A stretch of DNA of 45,489 nt, from contig CAMXQX010000003.1 of NCBI GenBank assembly GCA_947246355.1, forward strand, positions 1 to 45,489, given 5' to 3'. A program made the position numbers and the translations under genes. How positions within the stretch are numbered: the stretch's first letter is position 1; each line of letters opens with the position of its first letter. The notes beneath the pieces were generated by a model. It did not search any database. It was given only the letters and a program-made list of their open reading frames with translations, and had not been told where the DNA came from. This DNA is from an uncultured Bacillota bacterium. GTDB taxonomy: Bacteria > Bacillota_I > Bacilli_A > RF39 > UBA660. Shown piece after piece: positions 10,146-36,690 of the stretch.

Positions 10146-10281
10146 AACAGATGATGTGAATTAGAAGATGTTTGTCATTTTTGAATGAATATTTTTCTAA
10201 TACATCCTGTATTTATGCTTTATAATCACACGAAGTATATAGATTTTAATATAATATAGAAAGGTGAGAAAGGAGAAATTT

Positions 10282-10755
10282 ATGGAAGAATATGTTTTAA
10301 ACTTTTCAATTCCACAGGGTCCAACAGGCCCAGAAGGTCCGAATTTACCAATATGTTATGTTAATTACAATACGGTTACGAATCCAAAAAGACTCTCAAT
10401 AAAAGATACAAAAATGTTTCATACGAATGGTGAATTTTCTGTTAATGGGGATTCATTATCGGTGCAGGCTGGGACATATGAAGTCACATTTTGTGGAAGA
10501 ATAGATGTGAATCAAGATTTTCAGAGTAATATCATGGTTGCATTACAGGAAAGCTTAGGTGGAGGGTATTCACAACCAGTTAGTGGGATGACCATGGTTT
10601 TGGCGCCTGGAATAAACTGTATGCATTTTTCCGAAACAAGAATAATAACGCTTAGTGATGCAGAAGATATATTTGTAATTATTTCAAACAATAATGCAAT
10701 TTCCATTTCTGCTACAGTGTCAATGGGATCATTAATTTTGAAAAAAATAGCATAG
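10282..10755 (+). CDS. Collagen-like (BclA-type) protein, third paralog
   Basis: YVLNFSIPQGPTGPEGPN head, C-terminal domain ending SLILKKIA; aaggagaa RBS. Confidence 0.7.
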   Translation: MEEYVLNFSIPQGPTGPEGPNLPICYVNYNTVTNPKRLSIKDTKMFHTNGEFSVNGDSLSVQAGTYEVTFCGRIDVNQDFQSNIMVALQESLGGGYSQPVSGMTMVLAPGINCMHFSETRIITLSDAEDIFVIISNNNAISISATVSMGSLILKKIA

Positions 10756-11504: not shown

Positions 11505-11681
11505 AAATAATTAAGAATATAGAAAGATATAGAATACAATTGCCAAATATTCCTATGATTTTATAGATAATGGAGGAATAAAAAAGAAAATAGAATAAAA
11601 CCCACTTTTTAAAAACAGTGTCTTTTTTTTTATTCTTTTTTGTTATATACTATAATTATAAGAATAATAAGGAGGGATCAC

Positions 11682-13268
11682 ATGGTATTAAGAAAACCTT
11701 TGGCTTTTTTAATTAAACATTTTAAGCTCATTCATTTTTTTCTAGTTGTTCTCTGTATTTTTTTAATTTATAAAACCAGTAGTATTCTTGTATTTATGAA
11801 TGAGTACATCACTTCCAATATTGGTGTTTTGAATACCGAAGTTGCAAACGTTTATATTACTCCTTTGATGTATCTTTTAATCTTAGTGATGATGCTGGGC
11901 TCTGCTTTAATATTAACCATTTTAAAGTTAAAAGATAAGCCTATTAAATTTTATATATTCAATATTTTTGCTTATGTTTTAGTCTTAGCTATTTTTTTAT
12001 ATAGTTATAGTTTACTGGAAACATTAGAAGATCGTCTTATTGAAATACAAACATTAGAACTTTGTAGGGATTTGTTGGTCTTATCTATCCTTTTTCAAAA
12101 TTTATCGTTGATTTGGCTTACAATACGAGCAGTTGGATTTGATATTAAAAGTTTTCATTTTAATGAAAATTTAGATGAACTTCAAATTGAAGAAGAAGAT
12201 AGTGAAGAATTTGAAGTGGATTTAGAAGTTGATAGACATTTATACACGAGATATTATCGTAAATTTAAACGATTTATGACATATATGTTCAAAGAAAATA
12301 AAATTTTTGTGATTCTTTTTATTTTAGTTTTTATAGGAATCTCTTGCTATGTTGTTTATTTAAACCATGGTGTATATGAAGAGGAACTCTCTCTAAATCA
12401 AACTTTTAGAACCAATGAATTCATAATAAATGTTGAAAATAGCTATTATACTACAACCGATTATGAAGGAAAAACGATAAAGAAAGATAAGGGCCTTGTC
12501 TTATTGAGAATCAATATTAAAGCAGGGGCTTCTAGTAAAAAGATATTTAAAACGGGACGACTTTCTTTAATAATTAATAAGCAACGATTTGCTGCAACTA
12601 CAGAGTACAAAGATAAATTTACTGATTTGGGTTATACTTACCTTTCAGAAGAAATTTCCAAAGAGGGAACGACTTATTTAGTTGCTTTTGAAATTCCCTC
12701 TACACTAAAAGATAAAAAAATGATAGTAAAATATACTGACATTAATGATTTAGAGGTCAATATTGATGTGACCCCTATTGATTTGACGAAAAAAAGAAAT
12801 GCGACAACGATTTTTTTGCCAGGTGAGATGGTTTTTGAAGAAAGCCCTATGCGAAAAAGCATTCTTACGATAAGAGAAGCAGACTTTGCAGATCAATTTA
12901 AAATAGAATACAATTATTGTTATGACAAGGAACACTGCTACGATTCCTATGAATATATAAAAACAACAACAGGGGATAGAACCACGAAAACTCTATTAAA
13001 AATCATAGGAAACCTTACGATTGATGCAACTTTAAATACAGAGCTTAATTCCAACATCTATAAATTCATGCAGTATTATGGAAGTATTGCATACAAAACC
13101 AATGGACAAACTAAAGTGATGACAGGTAGTTTTAAAAGAATTTATCCCCTAAAAACAGAAAATAAAAATGAGTACTATATAGAGGTGGATAAAGAGGTTT
13201 TAAATGCGGAGGAAGTAAGCCTTATTTTCAATGTTAGAGGTTACATTTACACATATCGCTTAAAATAA
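11682..13268 (+). CDS. Multi-TM membrane protein with C-terminal extracellular region, first gene of the Tad/T4SS locus
   Basis: Four N-terminal TMs, acidic linker, one TM, then a beta-rich ectodomain; aaggaggg RBS before ATG 11682 (ORF track start 11640 is an extension). Confidence 0.75.
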   Translation: MVLRKPLAFLIKHFKLIHFFLVVLCIFLIYKTSSILVFMNEYITSNIGVLNTEVANVYITPLMYLLILVMMLGSALILTILKLKDKPIKFYIFNIFAYVLVLAIFLYSYSLLETLEDRLIEIQTLELCRDLLVLSILFQNLSLIWLTIRAVGFDIKSFHFNENLDELQIEEEDSEEFEVDLEVDRHLYTRYYRKFKRFMTYMFKENKIFVILFILVFIGISCYVVYLNHGVYEEELSLNQTFRTNEFIINVENSYYTTTDYEGKTIKKDKGLVLLRINIKAGASSKKIFKTGRLSLIINKQRFAATTEYKDKFTDLGYTYLSEEISKEGTTYLVAFEIPSTLKDKKMIVKYTDINDLEVNIDVTPIDLTKKRNATTIFLPGEMVFEESPMRKSILTIREADFADQFKIEYNYCYDKEHCYDSYEYIKTTTGDRTTKTLLKIIGNLTIDATLNTELNSNIYKFMQYYGSIAYKTNGQTKVMTGSFKRIYPLKTENKNEYYIEVDKEVLNAEEVSLIFNVRGYIYTYRLK

Positions 13269-13327: not shown

Positions 13328-13981
13328 ATGAAAAATTATGGTAAAATAGTGGTATTCATTGCTTTATTTCTATTTTGTCCTCGAAGTATAAAAGCACTCC
13401 TTTGTGAAAATGTAGATAAAGTAAGATACCAAGATTTAGCAAAAAATATCTCTTATAGTTATGATGCTATAGAAAAAAATGGAAATGTAAAATTTACGAT
13501 TACTTTTTCAAATATTCCAAAAAATTTTGCAATAAAGCATGTTGCTTTAAATCAATGGTTTGGTTATAAAGGTAATGAACTAAAAATAGAAAATTTAGAA
13601 CCGAATAAGAGTTACCGGTTTGATATTTTTGTAGAAGAGGGGGAAGGCTGTGACAATATTGTGATGTACACAATCAATATTAGTTTGCCTTTTTATAATA
13701 AATATTATAAGGATCCATTATGTGAAGGAATAGAGAGCTATAAATTATGCCAAAAATGGGTTCAGACCGATTACTCGTACGAAGAGTGGAAAAAACAGGT
13801 CAATAAGTATAGAGATAGTAAAGAAGAGACTATAGTTAAAGAGGAAGAAAAGAAAAATAATTCTTGGATAGAGAAAATAATAGAAGTATATGGAAACATT
13901 TATTACATTGTTTTACCTTTAATTATTGGAATTGGTGGTATAATAATATTTATATATAACAAAAAAAGAGATTTGTTTTAG
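13328..13981 (+). CDS. Secreted/membrane-anchored protein with C-terminal TM
   Basis: Signal peptide, ~150-aa ectodomain with 5 Cys, C-terminal TM (YYIVLPLIIGIGGIIIFIYNKKRD). Confidence 0.75.
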   Translation: MKNYGKIVVFIALFLFCPRSIKALLCENVDKVRYQDLAKNISYSYDAIEKNGNVKFTITFSNIPKNFAIKHVALNQWFGYKGNELKIENLEPNKSYRFDIFVEEGEGCDNIVMYTINISLPFYNKYYKDPLCEGIESYKLCQKWVQTDYSYEEWKKQVNKYRDSKEETIVKEEEKKNNSWIEKIIEVYGNIYYIVLPLIIGIGGIIIFIYNKKRDLF

Positions 13982-13995: not shown

Positions 13996-16900
13996 ATGAA
14001 AAGAAAATATGTAGAATATTTCATTTTCTTAATGCTTCCTTTACTAAGTATTAACTTATTTGTAGATAGCGTAAAAGCAGATGAAAAGTGTACAGCAAAG
14101 ACAAAACTGACGCAATATGGGGCTTTAACAGTAGACTCATTGAGTGGGAAAATAAAAGTTCCTCATAGAACATTTAATATTTATGTGGGGCAAACGGTTG
14201 CCTTTTGTATTGAACCAGGCAAGCCATTACGAACAGGAGAAATTGTTATTGAAAATGGTTGTTCGGATATGCCTGTTGAAGCAAAAAAAGCTTTAAACTA
14301 TTGTGCAAATAAAGGATGCAGCCCAGAAGAATACATAGTAGCGCAAATGTATATTTGGGGTGGAGATGTGCAGACTGCTGCAGAAGCCATTTGCTCTTAT
14401 CGTGGACAATCAAGAAAAGAATCTTGCATTTTAGCTGAATCAAAAAGTGGGAGCACTGCCCATAATATATATACAGCAGTCAGTGCAACTTCTGCTAGTG
14501 GGAACGATTTTATATGTTGGCAACCGAAAAATGCATCTCATCAAAAAACAGTAACAAAACAGGTTTCTTCTTGTAGATACTATTGTCCAGAAGACAAATT
14601 AAATAGTGGATTAGATATTACAGATTGTGTGATAAAACAAAAAAAATCTTATGATACTTGTGTAACAGAACTTTGTGGTACAGAAGCAAGCTGTTCGGGA
14701 AACTCTATTGAATTAACAGGGCGTTTGGCAGTATGTACAGACGATTATGAACCTTCTCATTCGATTTTTAGTGAAGCAATTGGCCCCAAGAGTACATCTT
14801 CTTCTGATTCTGATAAAGGTCGGTTAACGTATAAAGTAGCTGGCAGTGGAACATATTGTGCTTTATATTGCTTGGAAACGGCAGAAGCTGTTTTGCCAGG
14901 GGGCCTTGCCAATCCAATTCGTCTTGGCTCAGCGATTACTTGGCCAACATCAGACCAAACCAATACATCAAGATTTGGCAATAAGTTTCCACTTTACTTT
15001 CATGGACAGAAAGAATGTTATATTAAGGTTGCCCCTGATTTGACATTTGGACAAGGATGTGAGACAGACCCAGTTAAGACTTTCGCAGATTATAGAAAAG
15101 AATTAGAGGCGGCTTACAAAAAAAATACAACAGCGAAGAAAACGGTTGACAATGCGAATAAATATTTGACAGGGCATAGCAATGGGGCTACACTATCCTC
15201 TCTTACCAAAATAGATAAAACACCAGAAATTAACTATTTAGATTTAACAAATGAGGAAATTCGAAAAAAGGCAATTAAAAATTACAATGAATTAAAAAAA
15301 TCAAGTGCTCCAAATTTATTTTTAAGTTTTTTGAATACAGCTAAAGCTAACAAGAAGGCAGCAGAGGGAAATGTGACTAAAGTATGGCAAAAATACTGCG
15401 ATGGTAAAGGACAAGCAGCAACCGCGAGCCATTCTTGTACAGGTGGAGGTGTTTATAATGGAACAACTGGCACTTGTAGCGCTGGAACAAAGGTCACAAC
15501 TTATACCTGTCCTGATCATTATTCATTATCTGGAACACAGTGTAAGTGTACGAAAGATACAGCCAAAGAATTGGATGGAGGCAATACAAAATTTTGGGAG
15601 GAAGCCGTAAAGGCTTGGAATGCTGCTGTAAGTGTATTGACCAACAAGCATAATTATTATAATACCTATATTACTAAATTAAAGAAGACTGTCGATTTAT
15701 ATAATGAGATCTATTTATGTGCTACAGAGGTACCCAAAATATTTAAAGAGGACTGTAATGGAAGTGATACATGTCAATTCTATGAATTTGAAACATATGC
15801 CACTATGTCTTATACAGATGAGGGAGAGTATACAGAAGGTGCAGAGGGCGATCATACTTTGGTTTTAGAGCAGCCTGCGAAATATACTTGTCAAAACTGT
15901 GATTCTCCTGTTAATATGCATGCTCCAAATGACTTGCTAAGCTCCACTATTGAAAATAAAAGTGGTGGAACATGGCTTGTTGAAAATGGAAATACTTATT
16001 TTTCAGATAAAATCAAAGATATACAAAATAAAAAATTTGAGATTGATACAGGAAAAGTTATATATAGATTAGAGGATAATCTTTATAACTATATTGATAA
16101 AAATACGCAAAAATGGGAAATGGATCGACCAGAACATAACAATTATATAACAGATGGACTAGATAAGAATGGAAAATTTTTATATAGTAATCTGCCTACT
16201 TCTTTCAAAAATAAATTAAATAAGAAATATGATTTAATCATCAGAGAAATTGCATTAGGACATAAAAGTCAATTTACTTCGGAGACGTTGAAAGGGGTTC
16301 TTGATAAAGATTACGTTTGTCATTATACAGTAACTCCTAAAACAGATGATCCTTGTACCTGTCCACCAGGAACTTTAAATGCGGGTATGCGTTTAACAAG
16401 TATTATTGAGCAAAACGGGATGACCTGTGCAGAAGCACAATATGAGTATTGCAATAGAGATAATCCAGGCCCAGGGTGTGAAGAAAACTGTGAAATTTTT
16501 TGTGACAGTGACCCTACCATTGAAATTACCCCTTGTATAAATGAGGGAAAAACAAAAGCAGAGTGTGAAAAACTATTCTGTAGTGGGAATAATCCCCATT
16601 ATGTTTGTCCTTCTGGAAAGAACAAGGGTATGGATATTACAGATTGTGTTATGAAAACGATGACTAAAAATAAGAATTATAAATTGGAAGAGGCAAAAAA
16701 ATATTGTGAAAATCGTTTATGTAATTTAGATCAATTGATTATTTATCGTACAATTGACCTAAAAAATCCATTCCCAAGTTTGGATGCGGATGAACTAGCT
16801 ATTGCCAATTGGCCAGATATAGGTGCATTTAATTTAACAATTCACGGAAGGAAACCAGGCTCTAACTGGAATAGCACCAGTCTAGTACAAAATCGTATTC

Positions 16901-17223
16901 ATAAAGTGGTACGAGATATAGATAAAGTGGCAGACTATGAAATTTATAAACAAAAACCACTATATCATTTTGAATTAGATACAACAACGATTAAGCAAAT
17001 TCGTAGTTACAATAAAGAACAAGCAAAAAAAGGGTATGGATATAATGATTACAATTTAACATGCAATAAGACGATGGGTGACTCCAATTTGGGAGCAGGT
17101 TGTATCAGTTCCTTCGTTCATAATCCAACTTACGGAGGAGATACCAATGGTTCAAAAAGTCGTTGTGGAGGCATTAGCAATCCGAATCGATTAGTGGAAT
17201 GTCTTGCTGGAGGTGGATCATAG
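13996..17223 (+). CDS. Large Cys-rich secreted protein with N-terminal thioester (TED/TQXA-like) adhesin domain
   Basis: Signal peptide; VAFCIEPGKPLRTGE (Cys71) and IVAQMYIWGG (Gln117) match the spacing and context of internal-thioester adhesin domains; ~49 Cys by hand count; aggaggtgaa RBS. Confidence 0.75.
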   Translation: MKRKYVEYFIFLMLPLLSINLFVDSVKADEKCTAKTKLTQYGALTVDSLSGKIKVPHRTFNIYVGQTVAFCIEPGKPLRTGEIVIENGCSDMPVEAKKALNYCANKGCSPEEYIVAQMYIWGGDVQTAAEAICSYRGQSRKESCILAESKSGSTAHNIYTAVSATSASGNDFICWQPKNASHQKTVTKQVSSCRYYCPEDKLNSGLDITDCVIKQKKSYDTCVTELCGTEASCSGNSIELTGRLAVCTDDYEPSHSIFSEAIGPKSTSSSDSDKGRLTYKVAGSGTYCALYCLETAEAVLPGGLANPIRLGSAITWPTSDQTNTSRFGNKFPLYFHGQKECYIKVAPDLTFGQGCETDPVKTFADYRKELEAAYKKNTTAKKTVDNANKYLTGHSNGATLSSLTKIDKTPEINYLDLTNEEIRKKAIKNYNELKKSSAPNLFLSFLNTAKANKKAAEGNVTKVWQKYCDGKGQAATASHSCTGGGVYNGTTGTCSAGTKVTTYTCPDHYSLSGTQCKCTKDTAKELDGGNTKFWEEAVKAWNAAVSVLTNKHNYYNTYITKLKKTVDLYNEIYLCATEVPKIFKEDCNGSDTCQFYEFETYATMSYTDEGEYTEGAEGDHTLVLEQPAKYTCQNCDSPVNMHAPNDLLSSTIENKSGGTWLVENGNTYFSDKIKDIQNKKFEIDTGKVIYRLEDNLYNYIDKNTQKWEMDRPEHNNYITDGLDKNGKFLYSNLPTSFKNKLNKKYDLIIREIALGHKSQFTSETLKGVLDKDYVCHYTVTPKTDDPCTCPPGTLNAGMRLTSIIEQNGMTCAEAQYEYCNRDNPGPGCEENCEIFCDSDPTIEITPCINEGKTKAECEKLFCSGNNPHYVCPSGKNKGMDITDCVMKTMTKNKNYKLEEAKKYCENRLCNLDQLIIYRTIDLKNPFPSLDADELAIANWPDIGAFNLTIHGRKPGSNWNSTSLVQNRIHKVVRDIDKVADYEIYKQKPLYHFELDTTTIKQIRSYNKEQAKKGYGYNDYNLTCNKTMGDSNLGAGCISSFVHNPTYGGDTNGSKSRCGGISNPNRLVECLAGGGS

Positions 17224-17625
17224 ATGAAAGAGTCGATGTGGGGAACATATATCATAGGATTTGGAGTCATTGCGATAGCCTTTATCTTCTTCTTTCAAAA
17301 TGTTTCAAACACTTCAGAACAAAATTATGAACTATTGCAGGAAATTACAGAAGCAGCAATGTATGAAGCTGTGGATATGGCAACCTATAAAGCAACAGGA
17401 AATATTCGAATTGATGCTGAAAAATTTGCTGAAAATTTTGTAAGAAGATTTGCCCAAAGCGTTTCTTTAGGAAACTACTATATTATTGATATCTATGATG
17501 TCCAAGAATCCCCTCCCAAAGTTATTTTACGAATTTCAACAAAATTAGATAGTAACGTTGGGGGCGAATTGGTTGAATTTGACATTGTTGATAATATAAA
17601 TGCAATATTGGAAACTCCATATTAG
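17224..17625 (+). CDS. Small single-TM pseudopilin/TadE-like protein
   Basis: MKESMWGTYIIGFGVIAIAFIFFFQ N-terminal TM directly after a short Gly-ended leader; conserved position before CpaB. Confidence 0.55.
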   Translation: MKESMWGTYIIGFGVIAIAFIFFFQNVSNTSEQNYELLQEITEAAMYEAVDMATYKATGNIRIDAEKFAENFVRRFAQSVSLGNYYIIDIYDVQESPPKVILRISTKLDSNVGGELVEFDIVDNINAILETPY

Positions 17626-17634: not shown

Positions 17635-18513
17635 GTGAGTTATATGAATAATTTAGTTATTGCACTAAAAAGATTTTTTTCAAATAAAAACACGGTTACA
17701 ATATTAGGAGTACTTGCCGTTGTTTTGATCTTGTTTTTTGGATACCGTATGCAAATAAAAAAACAAGTAAACCCAATTAAAAATATTCCAGTAGCATCAC
17801 AGACCATTCAACCTAGGACCAAAATCACAAACGATATGATTGATTATATCGATGTTTCTCCTATTGTTTTACAATCCAATGTATATAGAAGAAAAAGTGA
17901 TATAGTGGATAAATATTCCAATTATAATACCGTTATTCCAGCAGGAAGCTTATTCTATCATGAGGCGGTTGTAAAAGAGGAAGATCTTCCAGATTCTGCT
18001 TTTGTAGAAGTCGAGGAAGGCCAAGTTCCTTATAACTTTCCTGTAACAACGGCTACTACATATGGAAACTCTATGTACCCAAAAAATTACATTGATATCT
18101 ATATGAAAGCTGTAAATGAGAATGGAGAATTAATGGTTGGGAAACTTATTGAAAATGTGAAAATTTTAGCTGTTAAGGATTCACAAGGACGTAATGTCTT
18201 TGAAAATTCCACAGAAGCAAGAACTCCAGCTTACCTTATTTTTGGATTGGAAGATGAACTTAATATTTTACTTAGAAAAGCAAGTTATATGAGTTCTTAT
18301 TCTGTGACGCTCTTCCCTGTTCCACATGGAGTAACAGTAAGTGGTGAAGAAGGAGAAACAATGGTAAGTTCTCAAACTTTAAAGAACTTTATTAATGCAA
18401 ATACAGTTCCAAATGATGAAATTAAAACCGATGTTACAGATACAAAGACAGAGGATAAAACAAACAACGACAAAACAACAACCAACGATAAAACTACAAA
18501 TAACGAAAGATAA
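17635..18513 (+). CDS. cpaB: Flp pilus assembly protein CpaB-like (SAF-type domain)
   Basis: N-terminal TM, then NIPVASQTIQPRTKITNDMIDYIDVS ... NTVIPAGSLFYHEAV SAF pattern; adjacent to cpaF. Start may be GTG 17635 or ATG 17644. Confidence 0.8.
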   Translation: MSYMNNLVIALKRFFSNKNTVTILGVLAVVLILFFGYRMQIKKQVNPIKNIPVASQTIQPRTKITNDMIDYIDVSPIVLQSNVYRRKSDIVDKYSNYNTVIPAGSLFYHEAVVKEEDLPDSAFVEVEEGQVPYNFPVTTATTYGNSMYPKNYIDIYMKAVNENGELMVGKLIENVKILAVKDSQGRNVFENSTEARTPAYLIFGLEDELNILLRKASYMSSYSVTLFPVPHGVTVSGEEGETMVSSQTLKNFINANTVPNDEIKTDVTDTKTEDKTNNDKTTTNDKTTNNER

Positions 18514-18521: not shown

Positions 18522-19943
18522 ATGATGGATGGAATGTTTTCCCAAATTGATTTTGGGGCATTGAAAGAGTATTTGGAACAAGATGACATCACCGATATAT
18601 CTTATAGTAATGGTGGACAGATTTGGTTAAAGACATTATCACGTGGTATTTTTAGAATCGAAAATCCAGGAATTAACAATGCTTTCATCGAGAAACTTGC
18701 TTTCCAATGTGCCAATTGTATGGGAACAACATTCAATATGGCACATCCATTTCTAGATGCAGAAGGAACAGAATTGCGTCTTAACTTTGTGCATGATTCG
18801 ATTGCTAGAAATGGTGTTGCATGTGTTATACGTAAAACACCAGCGAAAATTCGATTGGAAAAGGATAAACTATTAGAGCAAAAATATGTAGAACTGGATA
18901 TTCATGATTTTCTAATTCAATGTGTTTTGGGACACTGCAATATTATTGTTTGTGGAGAAACTGGCTCTGGAAAAACAGAATTTGTTAAATATTTAGCAGC
19001 ACATACGAAAGAGGATGAAAAGTTAATTACCATTGAGGATACACTTGAACTTCACTTGGATCGCATTTTCCCTCACCGTGATATTGTTGCAATGAAAACA
19101 AATAATATTGCTTCTTACTCAGATGTGCTTGTAACTTGTATGCGGCAGAACCCAAAGTGGATTTTGCTTTCTGAAGTTCGTAGTGCTGAAGCTGTTTTAG
19201 CGGTTCGTAACTCAATTTCTTCTGGACATTACATTTTATCTACAATTCATGCAGACAAGGCTTCTAGTATTCCTAATCGTATGTATTCTCTTATGGAAAC
19301 CAATCAAGATATTGATCAATTTTTAAAGACAATTCATCGGTATGTTCAAATTGGTGTATATATAAGAGGCTATCAAGATAAGGTAACGAAACGGTTTGTC
19401 CGTGAAATTGCAGAGGTTACTGAATTTTTTGTAACGCGGGATAATAAAGCAGAGTATAATGAAATCTATAAAAAGAGCACAACAGGAAATGTAATACGTA
19501 GGAAACCATCCCAGTATTTGCTTGATTATTTGGATACGCAAGGTGTTACCTTGAATCCCAATTTGATCGAGGAAGGGGAATCGAGCGTTCCTAAAAATTT
19601 TAATACATTTTTAGAAAAGCCTAATGCGCAAAGCCCTACGTTTAATGAAATTTTAAAAGAGGAAAAAAATGGACAAGTGATAGGGAATGCAATTAACCAT
19701 TATCAAGGTGCACCAATGCAAAACGCATATGGACAAATGGGTGAGCAAACCATTTCTTCCCCTATAAATGCAAATTCTGTAAGTCAAAATACGCAAGGAC
19801 AAGAACAGGCTCTAAATCAAAACCAAGCGTTTGTCTTTGATGAAAATGGAACACCTATTTTTAATAGACCACAAGGTGGTTCTGTAGCCAATGTAGGTAT
19901 TAGTCAAGGTGGAGTTTTGTTTGATACAAATTCAAACGTATAG
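18522..19943 (+). CDS. cpaF: CpaF/TadA-type secretion ATPase
   Basis: Walker A VCGETGSGKTEF, Walker B-like ITIEDTLELHL, LLSEVRSAEAVLAVRNSISSGHYILSTIHADKASSIPNRM; Q/N-rich C-terminal tail. Confidence 0.95.
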   Translation: MMDGMFSQIDFGALKEYLEQDDITDISYSNGGQIWLKTLSRGIFRIENPGINNAFIEKLAFQCANCMGTTFNMAHPFLDAEGTELRLNFVHDSIARNGVACVIRKTPAKIRLEKDKLLEQKYVELDIHDFLIQCVLGHCNIIVCGETGSGKTEFVKYLAAHTKEDEKLITIEDTLELHLDRIFPHRDIVAMKTNNIASYSDVLVTCMRQNPKWILLSEVRSAEAVLAVRNSISSGHYILSTIHADKASSIPNRMYSLMETNQDIDQFLKTIHRYVQIGVYIRGYQDKVTKRFVREIAEVTEFFVTRDNKAEYNEIYKKSTTGNVIRRKPSQYLLDYLDTQGVTLNPNLIEEGESSVPKNFNTFLEKPNAQSPTFNEILKEEKNGQVIGNAINHYQGAPMQNAYGQMGEQTISSPINANSVSQNTQGQEQALNQNQAFVFDENGTPIFNRPQGGSVANVGISQGGVLFDTNSNV

Positions 19944-19955: not shown

Positions 19956-20861
19956 ATGGATTTTATAATTTTTATAGTAATTGCAGGAATTGCAATCTTT
20001 GTTACTGCTTTTCGTCTTAATAGCAATGGAAGTGTATACAAGTATATCTCCAAAAATGCGGGAAGTATTTATGACAAAGTCGCACCCTATTCTTTTAAGG
20101 AAATAAGACAGAAAGTAAAAGATTTAGGACAAGAATATACAAAAAAGCAATATGCCATTCAAGCAACTGTCTTTTCTGTAGGAGCGTTTTTAGTTTCGTA
20201 TCTTTACTTTTATAACATTATTATCTCTATTCTATATGCAATTATTGCTGTTTGTGTTATTCCTTATTTAACTTATTTGCGATGCAAAAGGGTATATAGT
20301 GAATTTATTTTTGAACAAATTCAAGTCTATACGACCAATGTGATTATGGAATTTGGGACGACACAGTCCTTTGTTAAAGCCCTTGAGGGAGTTTATGAAT
20401 CTGGTGTTTTAGAAGATCCCGTTTTGAGCGATGTAAAAATGATGATTGATTTGGCCTATGAAAATGGAACCGTTGATGCATCTTTGGAGTATATGAATAA
20501 TAAATATGATTTCTTTATCGTAAAAAATATGCACCAACTTTTTTTACAAATCACAAATGAGGGTTCAAAAAATTCCGCAGATGCACTAGAAAATATGTCA
20601 CTTGATATCGATATGCTGGTTGAAAATGTATATCGTGATCGATTAGATAGAGCGGAATTCCATAAGAAATTTTTACAATTTGGAATTGTACTCTATTTAC
20701 TTGTCATGCTAGTTCAAATGTTACTTTCAACTGAAACATATATTAATTTAATTAATACTAATTTACTTGTCTTCTTCTTGTTGCATGGAATTATTATTGT
20801 AAATACAGCATTCTTGCTGAGTGGAGAAAAATATTACAATGAGAATGTGGGGGCGGAATAA
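19956..20861 (+). CDS. tadB: TadB-like inner-membrane platform protein
   Basis: T2SF-type topology, position after cpaF; gaaggagg RBS. Confidence 0.8.
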   Translation: MDFIIFIVIAGIAIFVTAFRLNSNGSVYKYISKNAGSIYDKVAPYSFKEIRQKVKDLGQEYTKKQYAIQATVFSVGAFLVSYLYFYNIIISILYAIIAVCVIPYLTYLRCKRVYSEFIFEQIQVYTTNVIMEFGTTQSFVKALEGVYESGVLEDPVLSDVKMMIDLAYENGTVDASLEYMNNKYDFFIVKNMHQLFLQITNEGSKNSADALENMSLDIDMLVENVYRDRLDRAEFHKKFLQFGIVLYLLVMLVQMLLSTETYINLINTNLLVFFLLHGIIIVNTAFLLSGEKYYNENVGAE

Positions 20862-21652
20862 TGGAGTTTATTTTTATAGCAATTATTTTACTATTCGTAC
20901 TAGAGTATAATAAAAAACTAGATACGAGAAAATTTATAGCCGATACACAGCCTTATTTCCACTTTTTAATGGAAGATAATTATAAATTTCTACTGAATAT
21001 AAGATATGGGGAAATTAGCGATGAAGATGTTAATGTTCTATTTGGAAAAAGAATTCGTGATGGAGCTTTAACCATCATTACACTCATTTTCATCTTTGTA
21101 ATGACAGACTTTAATTTTATAAGTTTCATTTTAAGTTTTATTATTGGATTTGTCGTTTTCAAAGCACCTTATACAAAACTAAAAGGTTATTATAATAAAA
21201 ATTTGGCAACCATTAACCAAATGTTACCCTTTTATTTAAAAGGTCTAGAAATTTTGATTCAACACTATACAGTGCCCGTGGCCCTTTCTAGAAGTATTGA
21301 TACAGCACCAGAAATCTTTAAACCAGGTTTAAGACGAATGGTTGAAAAAATAGAAGCTGGAGATTCTTCTATAGAGCCTTATATGGATTTTGCGAAAGAA
21401 TATCCTGTAAGGGATTCTATGCGTATGATGCGGTTACTCTATCGTTTAGGAATTGGTGCACAAGAAAATAAGCAAGAACAATTAATCATGTTTTCAAGAA
21501 ATGTTTCGTCTTTGCAAAATAAATCACGTGAACAAAGATATGCAGCACGTTTAGCTAAGATGGAAGGAAAAACAAGAGCTATGCTTTTTACAACCGGTGG
21601 TGGCGTTGTTATGCTTTTAATGATAGCAATGATGCAAATGATGTCATTATAA
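20861..21652 (+). CDS. tadC: TadC-like inner-membrane platform protein
   Basis: T2SF-like, paired with TadB; TAATG stop-start overlap. Confidence 0.8.
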   Translation: MEFIFIAIILLFVLEYNKKLDTRKFIADTQPYFHFLMEDNYKFLLNIRYGEISDEDVNVLFGKRIRDGALTIITLIFIFVMTDFNFISFILSFIIGFVVFKAPYTKLKGYYNKNLATINQMLPFYLKGLEILIQHYTVPVALSRSIDTAPEIFKPGLRRMVEKIEAGDSSIEPYMDFAKEYPVRDSMRMMRLLYRLGIGAQENKQEQLIMFSRNVSSLQNKSREQRYAARLAKMEGKTRAMLFTTGGGVVMLLMIAMMQMMSL

Positions 21653-25519: not shown

Positions 25520-25544
25520 GTACATAGGTAATGAAGGTGAACAG

Positions 25545-28083: not shown

Positions 28084-28120
28084 GTATGTGTGTTATTAGT
28101 AGCTCATGGGAGGGATTTCA

Positions 28121-30061
28121 ATGGAACAAACATTTGTGATGAATGGTATTCGTTCTTTTTTTGCAACAATTGATAGAGCCATTTATGGACTGATTTCTGT
28201 TATATATGAAATTATTGTAGAACTTGCAAATGCTACTATAATCAGTTCAAGTGCGATTGAAGATTTATATGCTAGAATCTATACATTACTAGGCATTTTT
28301 ATGTTATTTAAAATCACATTTTCTTTTATCAATTACATTATCAATCCTGATAGTTTTACAGATAAAGCCAAAGGTGTACAAAACTTAGTAAGAAATGTCT
28401 TGATTGTTCTTGTGATGATTATTATTACACCTTATGCGTTTCATCAATTGAATCGAGTGCAAAGAGCAATTTTAAGTGATGAGATTATTCCAAAGTTTAT
28501 TATGGGGATAGCAACAGATGAATCAGGGGGAGAACTAAAAAATCGATTCCAAATGTCAGATGAATGCGGGGGAAATTTTGGTGTTACAGCGACGAGTGGG
28601 GACTTTATTGCTCTATCTGTTTTTAGACCTTTTTATCAATTGGAAACAACAACGACGGATATTCCAGAGGGCTACTGTGCAACAGGTACTGTTACACCTT
28701 CTACTTATTTAAAAAAAGATATCTATAACAAAGATAGATTGATAGAAGATACCTATTTAGTAGATTATAAATTTTTCTTATCGACGATTGTTGGCCTTTT
28801 TGTCGCCTTAATCATGGTTTCCTTTTGTATGGATATAGCGTCACGCTCCATTAAAATGGCTTTTTTCCAAATGATAGCGCCTGTGCCAATTATGTCGTAT
28901 ATCGATCCAGCATCAGGAAAAAATGGGACTTTTTCCAAGTGGTTAAAACAGGTGTTTGTGACGTGGGGAAGTTTATTTATTCGTTTGATTGCTCTATTTT
29001 TCGCCGTTCATATTATATCCATTATTGATATTGATGTGATCGCTGCAGGATCGGAGCATAAATTTTGGATGTTATTGTTTATTGTGATTGGTGCTTTGAT
29101 GGTTGCGAAAGCCATACCATCCATCCTCGAAACCTTGTTCCCTGGGCTAAAGATGGGAGGCTTAAAATTAAATCCATTTAAGAAAATTGCAGATGAAGCT
29201 TTAGGAGGGAAACAAGCGCTTGGTGGGGCAGCGGCTCTTGCTGGAATTGGCCTTGGGGCGGCTTCATGGGCAGGCTCTGTTTATCATAACCGTGGGCAAA
29301 ATAAACTGAAAAATTTAGAGAAGAGAAGGGATTTAGCTGCTAAAAAGTACGGAGAGAATGATGCAAGAACAGATTATTGGCAACAGAAGTATGACGATGC
29401 AAAACAAGAATTGGAGAATAAAAAATTGGCTCGAGAAGCTCGACTAGATAATATAAGAGGAACTTTACATATTGATGAAATGGCCCTTCATCCTGTGACC
29501 AATACAATGAAAGAACTAACAAGGGGATTAAGACAGATGAAAGATGCGGCTAATGTTGCGTACAAACAAGGATCCTCTCAAAAATTCTCTGTAGTTGGTG
29601 TGGGTAAAGAATCCTCACAATTAAGGGATTATAAAGATAGGTATACTACATGGGATCGAACCAAAGATGCAGCGACCGATTTCTTTGGAGTAAAAAATGA
29701 ATCTGGTACGACAAGTAAAACGAAAGATGATATCCGAGCACAAGAGCAATTGATTGCCTCTTTACAAGAAAACTTACGGATGATGAACAATTCTTTCTCA
29801 AATTTATATACCCAATTAGGAGCCAATGAGGTTTCACAAATGCTTGTTCAAGATCCAAGAACTGGTTTATATTCGTTTAACCAAAACTATGATGTGGACG
29901 ATGCTGTAAATAATCGTGGTATCGATCGATCAGCCATTACCAATATGCAAGCCATTCTTACACAAATTGCAAATACAACGAAGGCACAACATGATGCACA
30001 AAAAGAAATGAATCGTTTACAAAAAATTAGAGATTCTCGGCCAGGATCTAAAGCGGCTTAA
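28121..30061 (+). CDS. VirB6/TrbL-like polytopic membrane protein
   Basis: Multiple TMs in residues ~40-370, long cytoplasmic coiled-coil C-terminus; gggagggattt RBS before ATG 28121; precedes PrgI/VirB4 genes. Confidence 0.75.
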   Translation: MEQTFVMNGIRSFFATIDRAIYGLISVIYEIIVELANATIISSSAIEDLYARIYTLLGIFMLFKITFSFINYIINPDSFTDKAKGVQNLVRNVLIVLVMIIITPYAFHQLNRVQRAILSDEIIPKFIMGIATDESGGELKNRFQMSDECGGNFGVTATSGDFIALSVFRPFYQLETTTTDIPEGYCATGTVTPSTYLKKDIYNKDRLIEDTYLVDYKFFLSTIVGLFVALIMVSFCMDIASRSIKMAFFQMIAPVPIMSYIDPASGKNGTFSKWLKQVFVTWGSLFIRLIALFFAVHIISIIDIDVIAAGSEHKFWMLLFIVIGALMVAKAIPSILETLFPGLKMGGLKLNPFKKIADEALGGKQALGGAAALAGIGLGAASWAGSVYHNRGQNKLKNLEKRRDLAAKKYGENDARTDYWQQKYDDAKQELENKKLAREARLDNIRGTLHIDEMALHPVTNTMKELTRGLRQMKDAANVAYKQGSSQKFSVVGVGKESSQLRDYKDRYTTWDRTKDAATDFFGVKNESGTTSKTKDDIRAQEQLIASLQENLRMMNNSFSNLYTQLGANEVSQMLVQDPRTGLYSFNQNYDVDDAVNNRGIDRSAITNMQAILTQIANTTKAQHDAQKEMNRLQKIRDSRPGSKAA

Positions 30062-30098
30062 AAAATTTAAAATAAAAGAATAAAAGGATAGTGATAAA

Positions 30099-30410
30099 AT
30101 GAATGGGAATTTTTTGATACCAGCAAATTCAAAAAGATCAAGATTAATCTTTGGCTTATTTAACCCTTTTGATCTAATTTTATTTGCTTGTGGTATATCT
30201 GTGAGTTTGATTTTGATGATGGTTCTTCCAATTGAACAGTTCAAAATCGCTATGATCGCCATTGCTCCGGGAGGTATTTGTGGGTTACTTGTCTTTCCAC
30301 TTCCTAATTACCATAATGTATTGACAGGTATTATGTCTATCTTTCGCTTTTTTACAAATCGAAGGACCTTTATATGGAAAGGTTGGTGTGTAAGAGATGA
30401 ATACAAATAA
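30099..30410 (+). CDS. PrgI/VirB3-like protein
   Basis: Two TMs and YHNVLTGIMSIFRFFTNRRTFIWKGW end typical of the PrgI family. Confidence 0.8.
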   Translation: MNGNFLIPANSKRSRLIFGLFNPFDLILFACGISVSLILMMVLPIEQFKIAMIAIAPGGICGLLVFPLPNYHNVLTGIMSIFRFFTNRRTFIWKGWCVRDEYK

Positions 30411-30957
30411 AAAAACAAAGCAAAAAAGGAGCAAGTATACGCTTGATTTTGTTCCTATTAAAAGCATTACCAATGGGATGATTGTTTTAGACAATAATGA
30501 GAAAGTGACAGGTATTAAAATTATTCCTAGAAACTTATTTATTCTAGATAATGCAACACAAGCGGCTATCATCGATAATTTGAAAAATGTTTATAACCAA
30601 ATTGAATATGAATTTTGGATTATCGCAGCAGATAGACCTGTGGATATTAATGTTTATTTATCACAGTTGCAGCTTCTTTTCAATTCAACACAAGATCAAG
30701 TGAGAAGAAAATTAATTATTGAAGATATCAATAAAGCCAATATGTTTATGATGAATAATATTGTGGATACGGAATATTATTTGCTATTTAAGGAAAAAGA
30801 TGCAGATAAGATCAACAAGCGATTGCGACAACTTGTAAATGGTTTTGCTAATGCAGGACTTAATTCCCATCAAACGACCAACGATGATTTGCGAATTATC
30901 ATTGATAATTTTCTAAATGGTGGACAAACAACAACTTTTGGGGCGGTGATTGGATAA
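30397..30957 (+). CDS. VirB4-associated N-terminal-domain protein (separate ORF)
   Basis: LDFVPIKSITNGMIVLDNNEKVTGIKIIPRN; overlaps prgI-like ORF and the downstream VirB4 ATPase ORF. Confidence 0.65.
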   Translation: MNTNKKTKQKRSKYTLDFVPIKSITNGMIVLDNNEKVTGIKIIPRNLFILDNATQAAIIDNLKNVYNQIEYEFWIIAADRPVDINVYLSQLQLLFNSTQDQVRRKLIIEDINKANMFMMNNIVDTEYYLLFKEKDADKINKRLRQLVNGFANAGLNSHQTTNDDLRIIIDNFLNGGQTTTFGAVIG

Positions 30958-32741
30958 TGAATATAAAAGCACAACTTGCTCCAAAGAGCTTAGAATTTAA
31001 ATCCAATGGATTTGTTATTAGTGATAAATATGCAACAATATTAACAGTGATTGCGTATCCAAAATATGTACAACCGGGTTATTTAGCAAGTCTTACAAGC
31101 ATGTCTGGAATTAAAGTGGTGATTAAACATATCCCTCTTCCTTTTAGTGTAATGAGTAAGATGCTAAATAAAGAAATTGTTGAATTAAAACAAAGATATA
31201 TGGAAGAAACTGACCGAACCTACCAAGAAAGAATCCGTATGGATTATGAGTCGCTCGAACAATTCGTTACGATGCTGGCCGCCAACCAATCCAAAATTTA
31301 TGATTTTCAAATGCACATTATGATCACAGCGGATAGTGAAGACGAATTACTAAATAAAAAATTACAAGTGAAGAACTACTTGGAAGCGATGCAAATGCGG
31401 GCAATCACCTTGCGTTTTGAACAAGAAAGCGTCTTAAAGTCAATTTTGCCGATTTACAAACCACAAGATATTGAAAGTAGAATTGGAACACCTATTCCAG
31501 CTCCTACTATGGCTGCGATGTACCCTTTTATCTTTGATAGTATCAAAGATCCAGGACTTGCTTGCTTACTTGGTGTCGATTTCTCCGGTGGTGTTATTCT
31601 TTTCAATCAATTTTTATATCAAATTCGAAAAGAACATAATCGAAATAATGCTAATTTAATTATTTTAGGTACTTCTGGTAGTGGAAAAAGTACAGCGGCA
31701 AAGTTGTTACTTCGAACACATATTCGAAACAACTGTCAATTGGTTATTATTGATCCAGAAGGAGAATTGGAGGATATGACTTCACGTTATGCAGGGGACT
31801 TTATTGATCTTGGTAAAGGTGGAGATTACGGAATGGTTAATCCACTAGAACCTGTTTTGGATGCCGATGAGGAAGATATCGAAAATGGATTAGGATATAC
31901 GGTATTAACTAGAACACTCCAATCTCTAAAAGCATTTATGAAATATTATGATCCAAAAATTGATGAAGATGTTTTAAATATGTTTAGTGAAGTGGTCCAA
32001 GAAACCTATAGACGATTTGGAATTAGTTTTGAATCTGACTTTTCAGAATTTTCATCAGAAGACTACCCAACGTTTAAAGATGTATATGCAACCATTCGTG
32101 GGCGGGTTTCTTCTATGGTAGAACAAACCCATGAAAAAGATATTTTAGAGAAATTGGAAATTAAAATTCGTCCAATTGTTAAAGAATTGAAATACTATTT
32201 TGATGGACATACAACTATACGACCTAAAAGCCAATTTATTGTTTTCAACATTCGTGAAATCATGAATGCGGATGCCAATATTAAAAATGCGCTCTTCTTT
32301 AATATTCTAAAATATGCATGGGGGCTCACTTTAAATAAAACAGTCAATACCATCTTAGAGGTAGATGAGGCCCATGTCCTACTTTCTGGAAACAATACAC
32401 TAGGTGCTGACTTTTTGGCCCAAATTCAAAGACGTTCTAGAAAGTACAATACAGGAACGATTATTATTACGCAGCAACCAAGTGATTTCTCTGATCCAAA
32501 TGTCATTACGCAGGGAAAGGCAATCTTTGACAATGCTTCTTACTATTTAATTATGGGGCTAAAAAAACAAGCAGCAGAGGATTTAGCTCGATTGGTGGAT
32601 TTAAATGAAAGTGAAGTAGAAGGAATCAAACGCTATACGCAAGGGGAAGCTTTATTTGTATGTGGTTCTAGGAGAATGCAGATTAATGTGGTAGCAACTG
32701 ATGCAGAATTAGACTCTTTCGGTAGTGGAGGAGGATTTTAG
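30957..32741 (+). CDS. virB4: VirB4-type T4SS ATPase
   Basis: Walker A LGTSGSGKST, Walker B NTILEVDEAHVLL, QRRSRKYNTGTIIITQQPSDF. Confidence 0.9.
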   Translation: MNIKAQLAPKSLEFKSNGFVISDKYATILTVIAYPKYVQPGYLASLTSMSGIKVVIKHIPLPFSVMSKMLNKEIVELKQRYMEETDRTYQERIRMDYESLEQFVTMLAANQSKIYDFQMHIMITADSEDELLNKKLQVKNYLEAMQMRAITLRFEQESVLKSILPIYKPQDIESRIGTPIPAPTMAAMYPFIFDSIKDPGLACLLGVDFSGGVILFNQFLYQIRKEHNRNNANLIILGTSGSGKSTAAKLLLRTHIRNNCQLVIIDPEGELEDMTSRYAGDFIDLGKGGDYGMVNPLEPVLDADEEDIENGLGYTVLTRTLQSLKAFMKYYDPKIDEDVLNMFSEVVQETYRRFGISFESDFSEFSSEDYPTFKDVYATIRGRVSSMVEQTHEKDILEKLEIKIRPIVKELKYYFDGHTTIRPKSQFIVFNIREIMNADANIKNALFFNILKYAWGLTLNKTVNTILEVDEAHVLLSGNNTLGADFLAQIQRRSRKYNTGTIIITQQPSDFSDPNVITQGKAIFDNASYYLIMGLKKQAAEDLARLVDLNESEVEGIKRYTQGEALFVCGSRRMQINVVATDAELDSFGSGGGF

Positions 32742-32763
32742 AAAAACGAGGTGGTGATTTTTT

Positions 32764-34572
32764 GTGAAGAAGAAAAATGAAATAGAATTGAATGGCGATA
32801 ATGATGTTCATTTTTCACCACTAGAGACACCTAAGTCAGAAGGGAATACCCCTTCTGACTTAGGTGCTATAAAAAACAATAATTTACCAAATAATGGGAG
32901 TGGGTCACGGACAAATAGAACAAAACCTTTCAAAGATAAAGAAATCAATATTTCACAGACCCCTTCCCCAAACGATAGAAATCCAAATCAACAAGTGAAT
33001 AATTTTGGCAAAGGCAGTTCTTTGCAACCTATGGAGAAAATACAAAAGGAACCAAGTACAGAGAATGTCACGAATCAAGCCCTTGATTCAAAAATGCAAA
33101 ACCCTCTTTTGAACCAAAACCATATGAAAGGTTTTGGTAGAAATAAAAAGATAGGAAATCCTAAAATCAATTCGAGTACTCCTTTTTTAGGAAAAGGGAA
33201 AGGTTTTTTACCTGGTAAAGGAAAACTTCCATCATTACAGGGAAATAAATTATTATCTTCCTTGACAAAAAGTCCTAATAAAAAGACAGAAGTTGCTAAG
33301 GACTTGGCAAAATCAAAAATCAACATGAATTTGATCGCTGCATTTAAAGCTCTACCTATTCATGTGAAATTAATTATTGTTGGAGTAGCTGCTTCTTTTG
33401 TGTTATTATTTGTGGTTATTATTACTGTAGTGATTTTATCTAACTCTTCTATGGATGGAAACCGTGAGATGTTAGAGGAGTATGTAAGAGGAGACTATAC
33501 AGAAGAACAACTTTGTCATTATTTAAAAAATAATGGATATATTTCCCAAGAAGAAAACTGTGAAGATACAAGTGCATTCCAATTCTTTGTTTCTTTAAAA
33601 GAACTCGTAAAAGAATACGAGGCAAACTATGCGATCAATCGTTTTCAAGTCAATACAGAATTGTTGTATGAAAGTTTATTTTATTTTTCAGCAGATCAAG
33701 AAGCGTATGACCAATTAACAAAAGAGGAAATACGTAATTTGATTGAAGCAAGTTTGGAAGAAATTGAAGAGTCCTGCGTTATCAAAACGTATAATGAAAA
33801 AGAGCAAACTTGTACGAAGAAAAAATACGTGTATACTCTTTATGAATTTAGTTTAAATAAATACATTTCTTATTTGAAGTATGGGACGACAAGTACCCAT
33901 CCGAATTATGGAAATAATAAGGACAATGCGGGACGAAACGGGAAGAGCGTTGCAAGAATTTGTGGAACAGGAACCAATACCGATTATATTTTTGGATATG
34001 GTTTTGTCAATACAAGCTCTTCCCCGTTGGTAGAAAACAGCAATTGTCCTAATGATCCTGTAACGGAAGAAGATTATAAAAAACTTCCTATTACTGAAAC
34101 GAGTTTAGAGCAGTTAAATACGTATGGCGGAGTTCCAAAATATTCGCATATTTATGAAGGTGGTTCCGTTGTTGAAAGTCCACCGATTGGGGAAGTAGTA
34201 GGAAATGGAAAAGGAGCAGATATTGCCGCTTATGCATTACAATTTGTTGGGAATCCATATGTTTGGGGGGGAACAAGCCTAACCAATGGAGCCGATTGCA
34301 GTGGATTTGTGCAAAAAGTGTATGAACATTTTGGTATTAAGTTAAATAGACATTCTGGGGATCAAGCAAAGCAAGGAAAAAAAGTAGCGTGTAATCTTGA
34401 CTCTTTAAAAGCAGGAGATTTGATTTTTTATGACAATCCAGTAAGTCATGTGGCCCTTTATATTGGCGATGGCAAAGTGGTGCATGCCAAAGGATTAAAA
34501 TATAATATTACGATAGATAAATACGATTACAGTCGTAAAGGAATCAATGTTTGTAAACGGATGGTAGACTAA
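32764..34572 (+). CDS. NlpC/P60 cell-wall hydrolase with disordered cytoplasmic N-terminus and TM (VirB1-like role)
   Basis: FVGNPYVWGGTSLTNGADCSGFVQKVYEHFGIKLNRHS...SHVALYIGDGKVVHA; GTG start after gaggtggtg. Confidence 0.9.
   Translation: MKKKNEIELNGDNDVHFSPLETPKSEGNTPSDLGAIKNNNLPNNGSGSRTNRTKPFKDKEINISQTPSPNDRNPNQQVNNFGKGSSLQPMEKIQKEPSTENVTNQALDSKMQNPLLNQNHMKGFGRNKKIGNPKINSSTPFLGKGKGFLPGKGKLPSLQGNKLLSSLTKSPNKKTEVAKDLAKSKINMNLIAAFKALPIHVKLIIVGVAASFVLLFVVIITVVILSNSSMDGNREMLEEYVRGDYTEEQLCHYLKNNGYISQEENCEDTSAFQFFVSLKELVKEYEANYAINRFQVNTELLYESLFYFSADQEAYDQLTKEEIRNLIEASLEEIEESCVIKTYNEKEQTCTKKKYVYTLYEFSLNKYISYLKYGTTSTHPNYGNNKDNAGRNGKSVARICGTGTNTDYIFGYGFVNTSSSPLVENSNCPNDPVTEEDYKKLPITETSLEQLNTYGGVPKYSHIYEGGSVVESPPIGEVVGNGKGADIAAYALQFVGNPYVWGGTSLTNGADCSGFVQKVYEHFGIKLNRHSGDQAKQGKKVACNLDSLKAGDLIFYDNPVSHVALYIGDGKVVHAKGLKYNITIDKYDYSRKGINVCKRMVD
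32828..32866. repeat. Perfect 17-bp inverted repeat with 5-nt loop inside the coding region
   Basis: CACCTAAGTCAGAAGGG-aatac-CCCTTCTGACTTAGGTG. Confidence 0.95.
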
Positions 34573-34591
34573 GGAAGTAGGTGAATCGAAT

Positions 34592-35974
34592 ATGAAAAAG
34601 ATAAAGCTATTATTAATAGGAGGGATGGTTTTTATTCTTCTTTTGTATTCTATCACCCTTTCTTCTACTAATACAATTGTGAATCAAGCAAAAGTCTATC
34701 ATGTATCTTCTTCTGATATTTCTGCCAAGTCCACCATGTTCGTGGATGCCTCTTTGGAATTTGGAGTTCCAGCTTCTATTTTAATGGCCTTAGCGATTGA
34801 AGAAACCAGTTTTGGTACGAAAGGTGTCGCTTTAAGTTTAAATAACTGGTTTGGTATGGAAAAATCGAGCCTTTACCCAACAGATCCGAATTATAAAGGA
34901 AGATTTGAAAAATATCCCAATGCAAAAGATTCTATCCGTGATGCAGCAAGATTGCTTGGTTCTCCTAAAGCAAGTTATAAGATTACCAATATTATCATTA
35001 ATAATGGTAGACTAGAGGGTTCTTATGATAAAATTGTACGTTCTATTACAGCACACTGGTGTGTAAATGAACCTGGAGCTCCTTGTAGTTACGATGCACA
35101 AACATTACTTGATGATATAGAAAAATACAATTTAAGACAGTATGATAAGGAATTAGGTAGGTTATCGACTGATGAATTAAAACAAATATTGAATAAGTAC
35201 TATGGACCTAATGCGATTCCTATACCTGGATATGACAAAGTAGAGGGTGGATGGAATGGAGATTATACCAATCCAGATATTGGTGCCAACGATGTAAATG
35301 GAATCTATTTCAATACTTCCTATTCTGGGAATATCGAGGAGGGATATATTTATAAAAAATACGCTAACAATGTAGTGTGGGGCAATATAGGAGCAGATTC
35401 TGATGAAAAAAAAGTGGATACCATTATTCGAAGAACATTTATTCAAGGAGAAGAATTGTATGGGGATGGAGTCCTTCATGCGGATGATTTCTTGTTTAAT
35501 GGAACAGACGAGGAAGCACCAGGAGAAAATGGAGGAAATGGAAAGGGAATCCCTCTTGCGTGTTATGTACGAATTTCTTCTAACTTTGACAATCAAGAAG
35601 AATTCAGAAAGTCAAAGCATAAGGGGCTTGATTTAGCCGCTCCAAGAGGAACGAATATTTATTCTGTGACGGATGGAACAGTAGTGCAAACCTATTCTGG
35701 ATGTTCCCCTAATGGGTTTTATGGTTCAAAATGTGGTGGAGGTTATGGCAATCATGTTAGAATAAAAGGAAATGATGGATATACGTATATATATGCACAT
35801 ATGCAGACAAGTCCATCCGTTAAGCGAGGAGATACTGTTAGTGAAGGTCGAAAAATAGGAATTGTTGGCTCGTCTGGAAGTTCTACAGGACCTCATTTGC
35901 ATTTTGAGGTTAAAAAAGGAGTAAGTATCAATCCACTTCCTTTTGCGAATGTATCGCTTATTCCCAAATGTTAG
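34592..35974 (+). CDS. Bifunctional glucosaminidase + M23 (LytM-type) peptidoglycan hydrolase
   Basis: GVPASILMALAIEETSFGTKGVALSLNNWFGM (glucosaminidase) and KHKGLDLAAPRGT...YIYAHMQ...GPHLHFEV (M23). Confidence 0.9.
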   Translation: MKKIKLLLIGGMVFILLLYSITLSSTNTIVNQAKVYHVSSSDISAKSTMFVDASLEFGVPASILMALAIEETSFGTKGVALSLNNWFGMEKSSLYPTDPNYKGRFEKYPNAKDSIRDAARLLGSPKASYKITNIIINNGRLEGSYDKIVRSITAHWCVNEPGAPCSYDAQTLLDDIEKYNLRQYDKELGRLSTDELKQILNKYYGPNAIPIPGYDKVEGGWNGDYTNPDIGANDVNGIYFNTSYSGNIEEGYIYKKYANNVVWGNIGADSDEKKVDTIIRRTFIQGEELYGDGVLHADDFLFNGTDEEAPGENGGNGKGIPLACYVRISSNFDNQEEFRKSKHKGLDLAAPRGTNIYSVTDGTVVQTYSGCSPNGFYGSKCGGGYGNHVRIKGNDGYTYIYAHMQTSPSVKRGDTVSEGRKIGIVGSSGSSTGPHLHFEVKKGVSINPLPFANVSLIPKC

Positions 35975-35986
35975 AAAGGACACAAA

Positions 35987-36679: not shown

Positions 36680-36690
36680 GAGGTTTAAAG

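Follow-up and report, generated by a model that had tools for sequence, protein, structure and literature searches.

How could a thioester adhesin be held at the bacterial surface when it carries no sortase signal? Thioester domains (TEDs) are used by streptococci and staphylococci for covalent bonding to hosts, and the known examples of covalent thioester adhesins are mainly surface proteins that Gram-positive bacteria anchor by sortase, with one plasmid exception. The question is raised by a gene within a 45,489 bp stretch of DNA, here called the window (contig CAMXQX010000003.1 of assembly GCA_947246355.1), from an uncultured Bacillota bacterium of the lineage RF39; UBA660. The source is a single metagenome-assembled genome (MAG) contig. 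The gene encodes a cysteine-rich protein of 1075 residues, referred to as the giant, which lies beside genes for a Tad-like pilus machine and a type IV secretion system (T4SS). The giant is probably a secreted Cys-rich stalk or base with a TED as its covalent-capture head, displayed with the Tad-like machine.

The N-terminal domain and its predicted thioester residues

Identification of the N-terminal domain as a genuine TED is well supported by sequence comparison. When residues 26–205 were used as a phmmer query against 177,635 PDB sequences, the sole match was SaTIE-TED (PDB 6fx6, E=0.00096), in an alignment spanning AFCIEPxK and YIxxQMxIW. The full-length giant finds SaTIE-TED at E 0.016, and for a profile built from 11 syntenic relatives it is the only PDB match (E 1.8e-6). 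The TED Cys motif, [YFL]C-Phi-zeta, is present as FCIE at Cys71 and the TQxxPhiW helix motif as AQMYIW (residues 116–121). A strict two-motif pattern running from the Cys to QxxPhiW is seen in 0.1% of shuffles of the giant's sequence. All three TED motifs are invariant among 13 same-locus sequences, and alignments A2, A4 and A5, which include Pfam-TED paralogues and 12 syntenic relatives, show no variation at Cys71, Gln117, Trp121 or Gln183. With the family profile, TEDs at other places in this bacterial family are recovered as well; one of them, in G009:C20 (E 9.1e-10), is also a Pfam TED match. An hhalign comparison of the TED group with the Pfam-TED paralogues placed these two motifs opposite each other (probability 79%; P 1.6e-5, calculated for this one comparison). 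TED paralogues are present in 110 of the 147 genomes of the bacterial family, including one in the giant's own genome. The SaTIE-TED match, the 11-sequence profile and the invariant motifs bear out the initial annotation of this domain as a TED.

The same annotation had paired Cys71, in VAFCIEPGKP, with Gln117, in YIVAQMYIWGG. Both residues are present in the translated open reading frame (ORF); the pair itself is not borne out. In characterised TEDs the Gln that forms the bond lies in a downstream strand, as in SfbI (Cys109-Gln261), PnTIE (Cys94-Gln247) and CpTIE (Cys138-Gln267) (PMC4450167), and the SaTIE pair is Cys296-Gln467 (PMC6194298). This Gln sits in a weak PhiQ-zeta-PhiPhi motif, and the central Gln of TQxxPhiW is dispensable for the thioester bond (PMC4450167, PMC6194298). 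Gln117 aligns with the Gln of TQxxPhiW and is rejected as the thioester partner on the evidence of the published TEDs; its predicted conservation among homologs does hold, though as the helix-motif Gln. The downstream equivalent, and almost certainly the Gln that would form the bond, is Gln183. Downstream in each member of the group, a Gln comes after an aromatic strand (KLYIWEAEIEPGKYQRFI, YLGIWQDTNNPSNQRVL, TYYEWTAEGSQHLV, LYVYESITSSGSYQRFI and SVYLYKPSNAQKQNII); the equivalent segment is VFYSSKVQNMLV in the sortase-type paralogue and FICWQPKNASHQKTV in the giant. Gln183 was aligned with YQRF[IL], NQRVL and QNMLV of relatives in segments that had been trimmed to end directly past the Gln motif, which aids its placement, the motif having been identified before alignment. 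The motif of the present copy, HQKTV, is a loose fit to PhiQ-zeta-PhiPhi. In L064 and L184, in which the domain contains 1–2 Cys, it is clear and reads YQRFI. The spacing from Cys71 to Gln183 is 112, near the 129–153 of class I TEDs (PMC4450167), and relatives range from 110 to 177. Gln183 is therefore supported as the predicted thioester-forming Gln, and the correction from 117 to 183 makes an unambiguous test of the thioester available.

The role proposed for Cys71 as the reactive Cys has stood up better. It is invariant and is the sole Cys of the domain in three relatives (L064, L066 and L270), and therefore it is not an obligate disulfide partner. The placement of Cys71 in a disulfide, considered as an alternative, is unsupported given these relatives. 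An AF2 model built on alignment A2 is of moderate confidence (pLDDT 62.8, pTM 0.61). In it Cys71 is in a strand and helices follow, one of which (helix 83–93 of the model) contains Gln117; this is the order expected for TED elements.

SaTIE-TED and the TEDs of TIE proteins (PF08341) share with the giant the AFCIEP Cys motif, QxxPhiW, a downstream bond Gln and a position after the signal peptide. SaTIE belongs to class II: it contains an inserted beta-sandwich, its Cys and Gln are 171 residues apart, its stalk has isopeptide/ester domains, and it is anchored by sortase, whereas the giant has a class-I-like spacing, a Cys-rich body and no sorting signal. Isopeptide (CnaA/B) stalk domains have no Pfam match anywhere in the giant, and searches of Pfam, NCBIfam and PDB sequences gave no match to the remainder of the protein outside the TED. 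The paralogue in its own genome (G000:C27, L062, 989 aa) is a canonical TED protein, with a Pfam E of 1.7e-9 and a Cys-Gln spacing of 176. Unlike the giant, it ends in IPNTYKN, a transmembrane (TM) segment and a basic tail, and a sortase gene lies about 3 kb away, which is the usual display route.

A family of Cys-rich proteins at a Tad-like locus

The giant itself is without LPXTG, lipobox or a second TM segment, and its last 80 residues contain no hydrophobic stretch. Assignment to the sortase-anchored TIE adhesins was rejected on the lack of an LPXTG-type signal, and lipoprotein display on the lack of a lipobox. The genome encodes three sortase genes. An exact count gives 49 Cys residues, in agreement with the hand count made initially, and the absence of a sortase signal is likewise confirmed; it extends to all 94 giants examined, none of which has LPXTG or a C-terminal TM segment.

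A search of genome contigs with the giant as single query found no relatives, and DUF5411, encoded directly downstream, was taken as the anchor; gene calls in the comparison genomes are mechanical ORFs. Of 147 genomes of the bacterial family, 120 contain DUF5411. Upstream of it, at 105 loci, were 95 large (at least 550 aa) proteins with many Cys, six cases of the small TM protein with no giant, and four other or truncated genes. Another set, of 80 named MAGs (uncultured Bacilli and Mycoplasmatota, overlapping partly with the first), gave 52 giants, 20 small TM proteins and eight other or truncated genes. The giants are about 600–1500 aa long with 1.6–5.4% Cys. A signal-peptidase-I-like site is present in 116 of the 126 that have a start, and a prepilin-like start in only one. 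At least 116 of 140 giants have in common a C-terminal module, about 350 aa long, in which the Cys are nearly invariant; among the 298 genomes of the class that were searched, the module is restricted to this bacterial family. A weak second match to this module (G000:C38:67-303, E 2e-5) lies near a contig end and is perhaps a second, broken-off giant.

A TED head is found in a minority of giants, with other N-termini in the rest. Strong three-motif TEDs occur in 12 of 389 genomes (profile, E<1e-14), and those of the weaker matches that were compared lie at other loci and are canonical TEDs. A further set of giants has TED-like heads with [YF]C[ILMV]D[PH]G in the equivalent position, AxR replacing QxxPhiW. 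These are encoded upstream of DUF5411 in L097, L099-L102, L105, L107-L109, L113, L139, L168 and L169; that of L139 reaches a Pfam TED E of 6.5e-4, just below the cut-off. The AxR-type head may be a divergent TED-like head, possibly of an undescribed TED subclass. Six changes of the TED label are needed on a tree of DUF5411, which is weak and built from few columns; at least three of these changes are forced by well-supported branches, and they may be swaps or losses. Identity among relatives is 26–35% for the giant and 30–46% for the small TM protein, against 70–85% for CpaF. The giant and the small TM protein are thus fast-evolving, as is usual for exposed parts. Several giants lie in tandem at some loci; in L068 there are three (1287, 1242 and 988 aa, with 73, 69 and 45 Cys), which suggests duplication and diversification.

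The features of the locus are given in Table 1. The gene for the small TM protein ends 14 bp before the giant, which ends directly at the start of DUF5411; these three genes therefore look like one operon. The order in relatives is fixed, running from the membrane protein gene at 11640 through that at 13328, the giant, DUF5411, CpaB, CpaF, TadB and TadC to the pilin-like genes. The small TM protein (13328-13981) marks the place where the giant is inserted. A prepilin peptidase is encoded elsewhere in the genome. The Tad-like block and then a relaxase-less monoderm T4SS occupy 17224-38730, near-contiguously.

Table 1. Features of the giant and of its locus, by position in the window
Feature	Position	Strand	Remarks
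Membrane protein syntenic with the block	11640..13268	+	30-38% identity in relatives
Small signal-peptide protein, one C-terminal TM	13328..13981	+	directly upstream of giant; adjoins DUF5411 where giant absent
Cys-rich secreted giant with N-terminal thioester domain	13996..17223	+	1075 aa, ATG start, 49 Cys (exact)
Predicted Sec signal peptide, residues 1-28	13996..14079	+	SVKA/DE (cut at the slash), signal-peptidase-I-like; from sequence
Thioester domain (TED), about residues 29-200	14080..14595	+	sequence homology, motifs; AF2 model pLDDT 62.8
Cys71, predicted thioester Cys	14206..14208	+	[YFL]C-Phi-zeta motif, AFCIEP; invariant in A2, A4, A5
Gln117-Trp121 (QMYIW), TQxxPhiW helix motif	14344..14358	+	not the thioester Gln; alignments, AF2 model, papers
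Gln183 (SHQKTV), predicted thioester-forming Gln	14542..14544	+	invariant in A2, A4, A5
Conserved C-terminal module, about residues 673-1053	16012..17154	+	six nearly invariant Cys; common to at least 116/140 giants
DUF5411 (PF17424), small, one N-terminal TM	17224..17625	+	E 7.9e-47; possibly minor-pilin-like, by topology
CpaB/RcpC-like protein	17635..18513	+	TIGR03177 E 4.7e-6, below its cut-off
CpaF/TadA-like secretion ATPase	18522..19943	+	PF00437 E 1.1e-25; 70-85% identical in relatives
TadB-like membrane protein	19956..20861	+	named from position and topology only
TadC-like membrane protein	20861..21652	+	named from position and topology only
Two pilin-like small proteins, one N-terminal TM each	21939-22373, 22373-22810	+	topology, synteny
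T4SS block, no relaxase	28106..38730	+	VirB6/TrbL-like 28106, VirB3-like 30099, VirD4 36691
T4SS block hydrolases	NlpC/P60 32764; glucosaminidase-M23 34592	+	
VirB4 split over two ORFs	30397-30957, 30957-32741	+	

Other genes of the window show further sequence features. Three proteins (23913-24299, 25518-26762 and 26820-28007) have in common a segment with two TMs around ESQNKFIKRIIYAVVIFFIVAIV; outside this segment, two are Cys-rich (17 and 15 Cys). The three are perhaps VirB2/TrbC-like subunits. Two small proteins, at 1435-1974 (-) and 10264-10755 (+), have short collagen-like GPTGPxGP stretches and no Pfam match, with C-terminal halves that presumably resemble C1q/BclA.

Proposed display of the giant

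If the giant is a covalent adhesin displayed with the Tad-like machine, Sec would export it and signal peptidase I would cut after Ala28. The TED would fold and form an internal thioester between Cys71 and Gln183, with Gln117 on a neighbouring helix, and reaction of this thioester with a target amine would bond the bacterium covalently to its target. The conserved C-terminal module would dock the giant on the co-encoded Tad-like pilus machine for display, most likely via the small TM protein and pilin-like DUF5411. Alternative tips, for other targets, would then be provided by orthologues whose N-terminal heads differ. The earlier suggestion that the neighbouring apparatus displays the giant as a tip or cap subunit is plausible and is strengthened by the synteny; for the tip position, as for docking, the argument is by analogy with the Tad tips of Myxococcus and with TIEpLS20.

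Kil/Tad pilus tip complexes (KilLMN, TadEFG), of the kind known in Myxococcus, have variable extracellular domains that are proposed to lie at the pilus end and are encoded next to minor pilins (PMC12075869). The giant gene is similarly found within a Tad-like locus beside minor-pilin-like genes. KilN and TadG are pilins with a pilin helix. The giant lacks such a helix and its Sec signal is cleavable, so that it would need to dock on a pilin. The literature found contains no report of a TED in Tad tips, nor does the open-access literature searched contain one of TEDs combined with Tad or type IV pili.

The closest precedent for a sortase-independent TED adhesin is TIEpLS20 (p34) of the Bacillus subtilis plasmid pLS20. 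Its gene is part of a conjugation operon; efficient mating depends on the protein, mating requires its Cys68, and sortase does not anchor it (PMC8092201). Like the giant it is a TED adhesin encoded with a T4SS, without a sortase signal and with a display route that is not known (PMC8092201). TIEpLS20 differs in its conjugative plasmid, the single Cys of its TED and its Cna-type domains, while the giant belongs to a relaxase-less Tad-like and T4SS locus conserved across genera and has a Cys-rich body that is peculiar to this bacterial family.

This precedent of a mating adhesin without a sortase anchor gives weight to another reading, in which the giant is a mating-pair or target-cell adhesin of the T4SS, with a TIEpLS20-like grip for delivery of DNA or protein by VirB4/VirD4, and the Tad genes are assembly helpers. 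The T4SS follows the Tad block in the window and in seven of 14 sampled genomes, and VirB4 is 63–83% identical across genera of the family, both of which favour this explanation. Against it, VirB4 orthologues with the same range of identity are found elsewhere in G109, G034, G101, G063 and G104, where the giant has remained beside the Tad genes; the giant thus travels with the Tad block. G001, considered as a case of T4SS loss with the TED kept, was dropped as proof of this linkage; its contig ends within the T4SS block. The relaxase-bearing conjugation operon of a conjugative-T4SS adhesin was also not found: T4SS genes are present, yet PF03432 was not detected in the giant's own genome (other relaxase classes were not searched) and exceeds its cut-off in only 25 of 147 genomes. 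Relaxase-poor monoderm T4SSs have a parallel in the MPF_FATA systems of Patescibacteria, which are widespread, chromosomal and proposed to be co-opted (PMC12102498). These belong to another phylum, however, and adhesins such as PrgB are undetected there (PMC12102498). A T4SS adhesin in place of Tad display is thus rather unlikely, but the two are not mutually exclusive and the pilus and T4SS could act together.

It is less likely again that the giant is a free or passively wall-bound covalent adhesin, secreted and retained on the cell wall by its Cys-rich body, with no mechanical relation to the Tad or T4SS genes. The Sec-type signal peptide and the lack of an anchor are consistent with this, as is the surface retention of TIEpLS20 by a route that is likewise not known (PMC8092201). 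Such an adhesin would not account for the close and conserved association of its gene with DUF5411 and the Tad genes, or for a C-terminal module restricted to a bacterial family that nearly always carries this locus.

Several observations weigh against a displayed covalent adhesin as proposed here. The present copy has seven further, non-conserved Cys in the TED, which could misdirect Cys71. The AF2 model of the TED is moderate, with a pLDDT below 50 in the Gln183 strand, and Foldseek found no significant match of it to a TED or other fold, so that the case for the TED is one of sequence and not of structure. The giant is unmatched by Pfam TED (PF08341) at E<=1, which reflects the limited sensitivity of the Pfam model and not the nature of the domain. 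For the C-terminal module, no recognisable fold emerged from AF2 and Foldseek, at low or moderate confidence, or from PDB-sequence search. Neither VKOR nor Thioredoxin_4 (DsbA-like) families were found in genome G000 as partners for disulfide formation, although the giant has 49 Cys and several proteins of the locus are Cys-rich. The extra Cys, together with an HQKTV motif weaker than the YQRF[IL] of relatives, would suit a degenerate TED that has kept the fold and forms no thioester, serving in non-covalent binding or a structural role; a related group keeps [YF]CxDP yet has lost QxxPhiW. Cys71 and Gln183 have nevertheless been kept although most of the domain has diverged to 16–25% identity, and degeneration is accordingly held to be improbable. 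The Pfam and Foldseek results could also be cited for the view that the giant is an unrelated Cys-rich protein matching the motifs by chance; this is contradicted at sequence level by the SaTIE-TED profile match and the motifs invariant in 13 sequences, and is extremely improbable.

The preferred reading therefore remains that of a TED-headed giant displayed with the Tad-like machine. More tentatively, this machine could be a possibly extendable pilus on which a secreted Cys-rich cap, particular to a single family of uncultured gut Bacilli/Mycoplasmatota, sits upon a pilin-like protein, its heads exchangeable and one of them a TED that bonds irreversibly to its target, so that partner, prey or host surfaces could be tethered for the linked T4SS. 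Thioester chemistry is here on a different body and, by linkage, with a different display machine, in a large uncultured clade of animal guts. If the reading is true, it explains in a testable way how TED adhesins that lack a sortase signal come to be displayed at the surface, and covalent capture would be linked with a Tad-like pilus and with a relaxase-less T4SS in one conserved locus.

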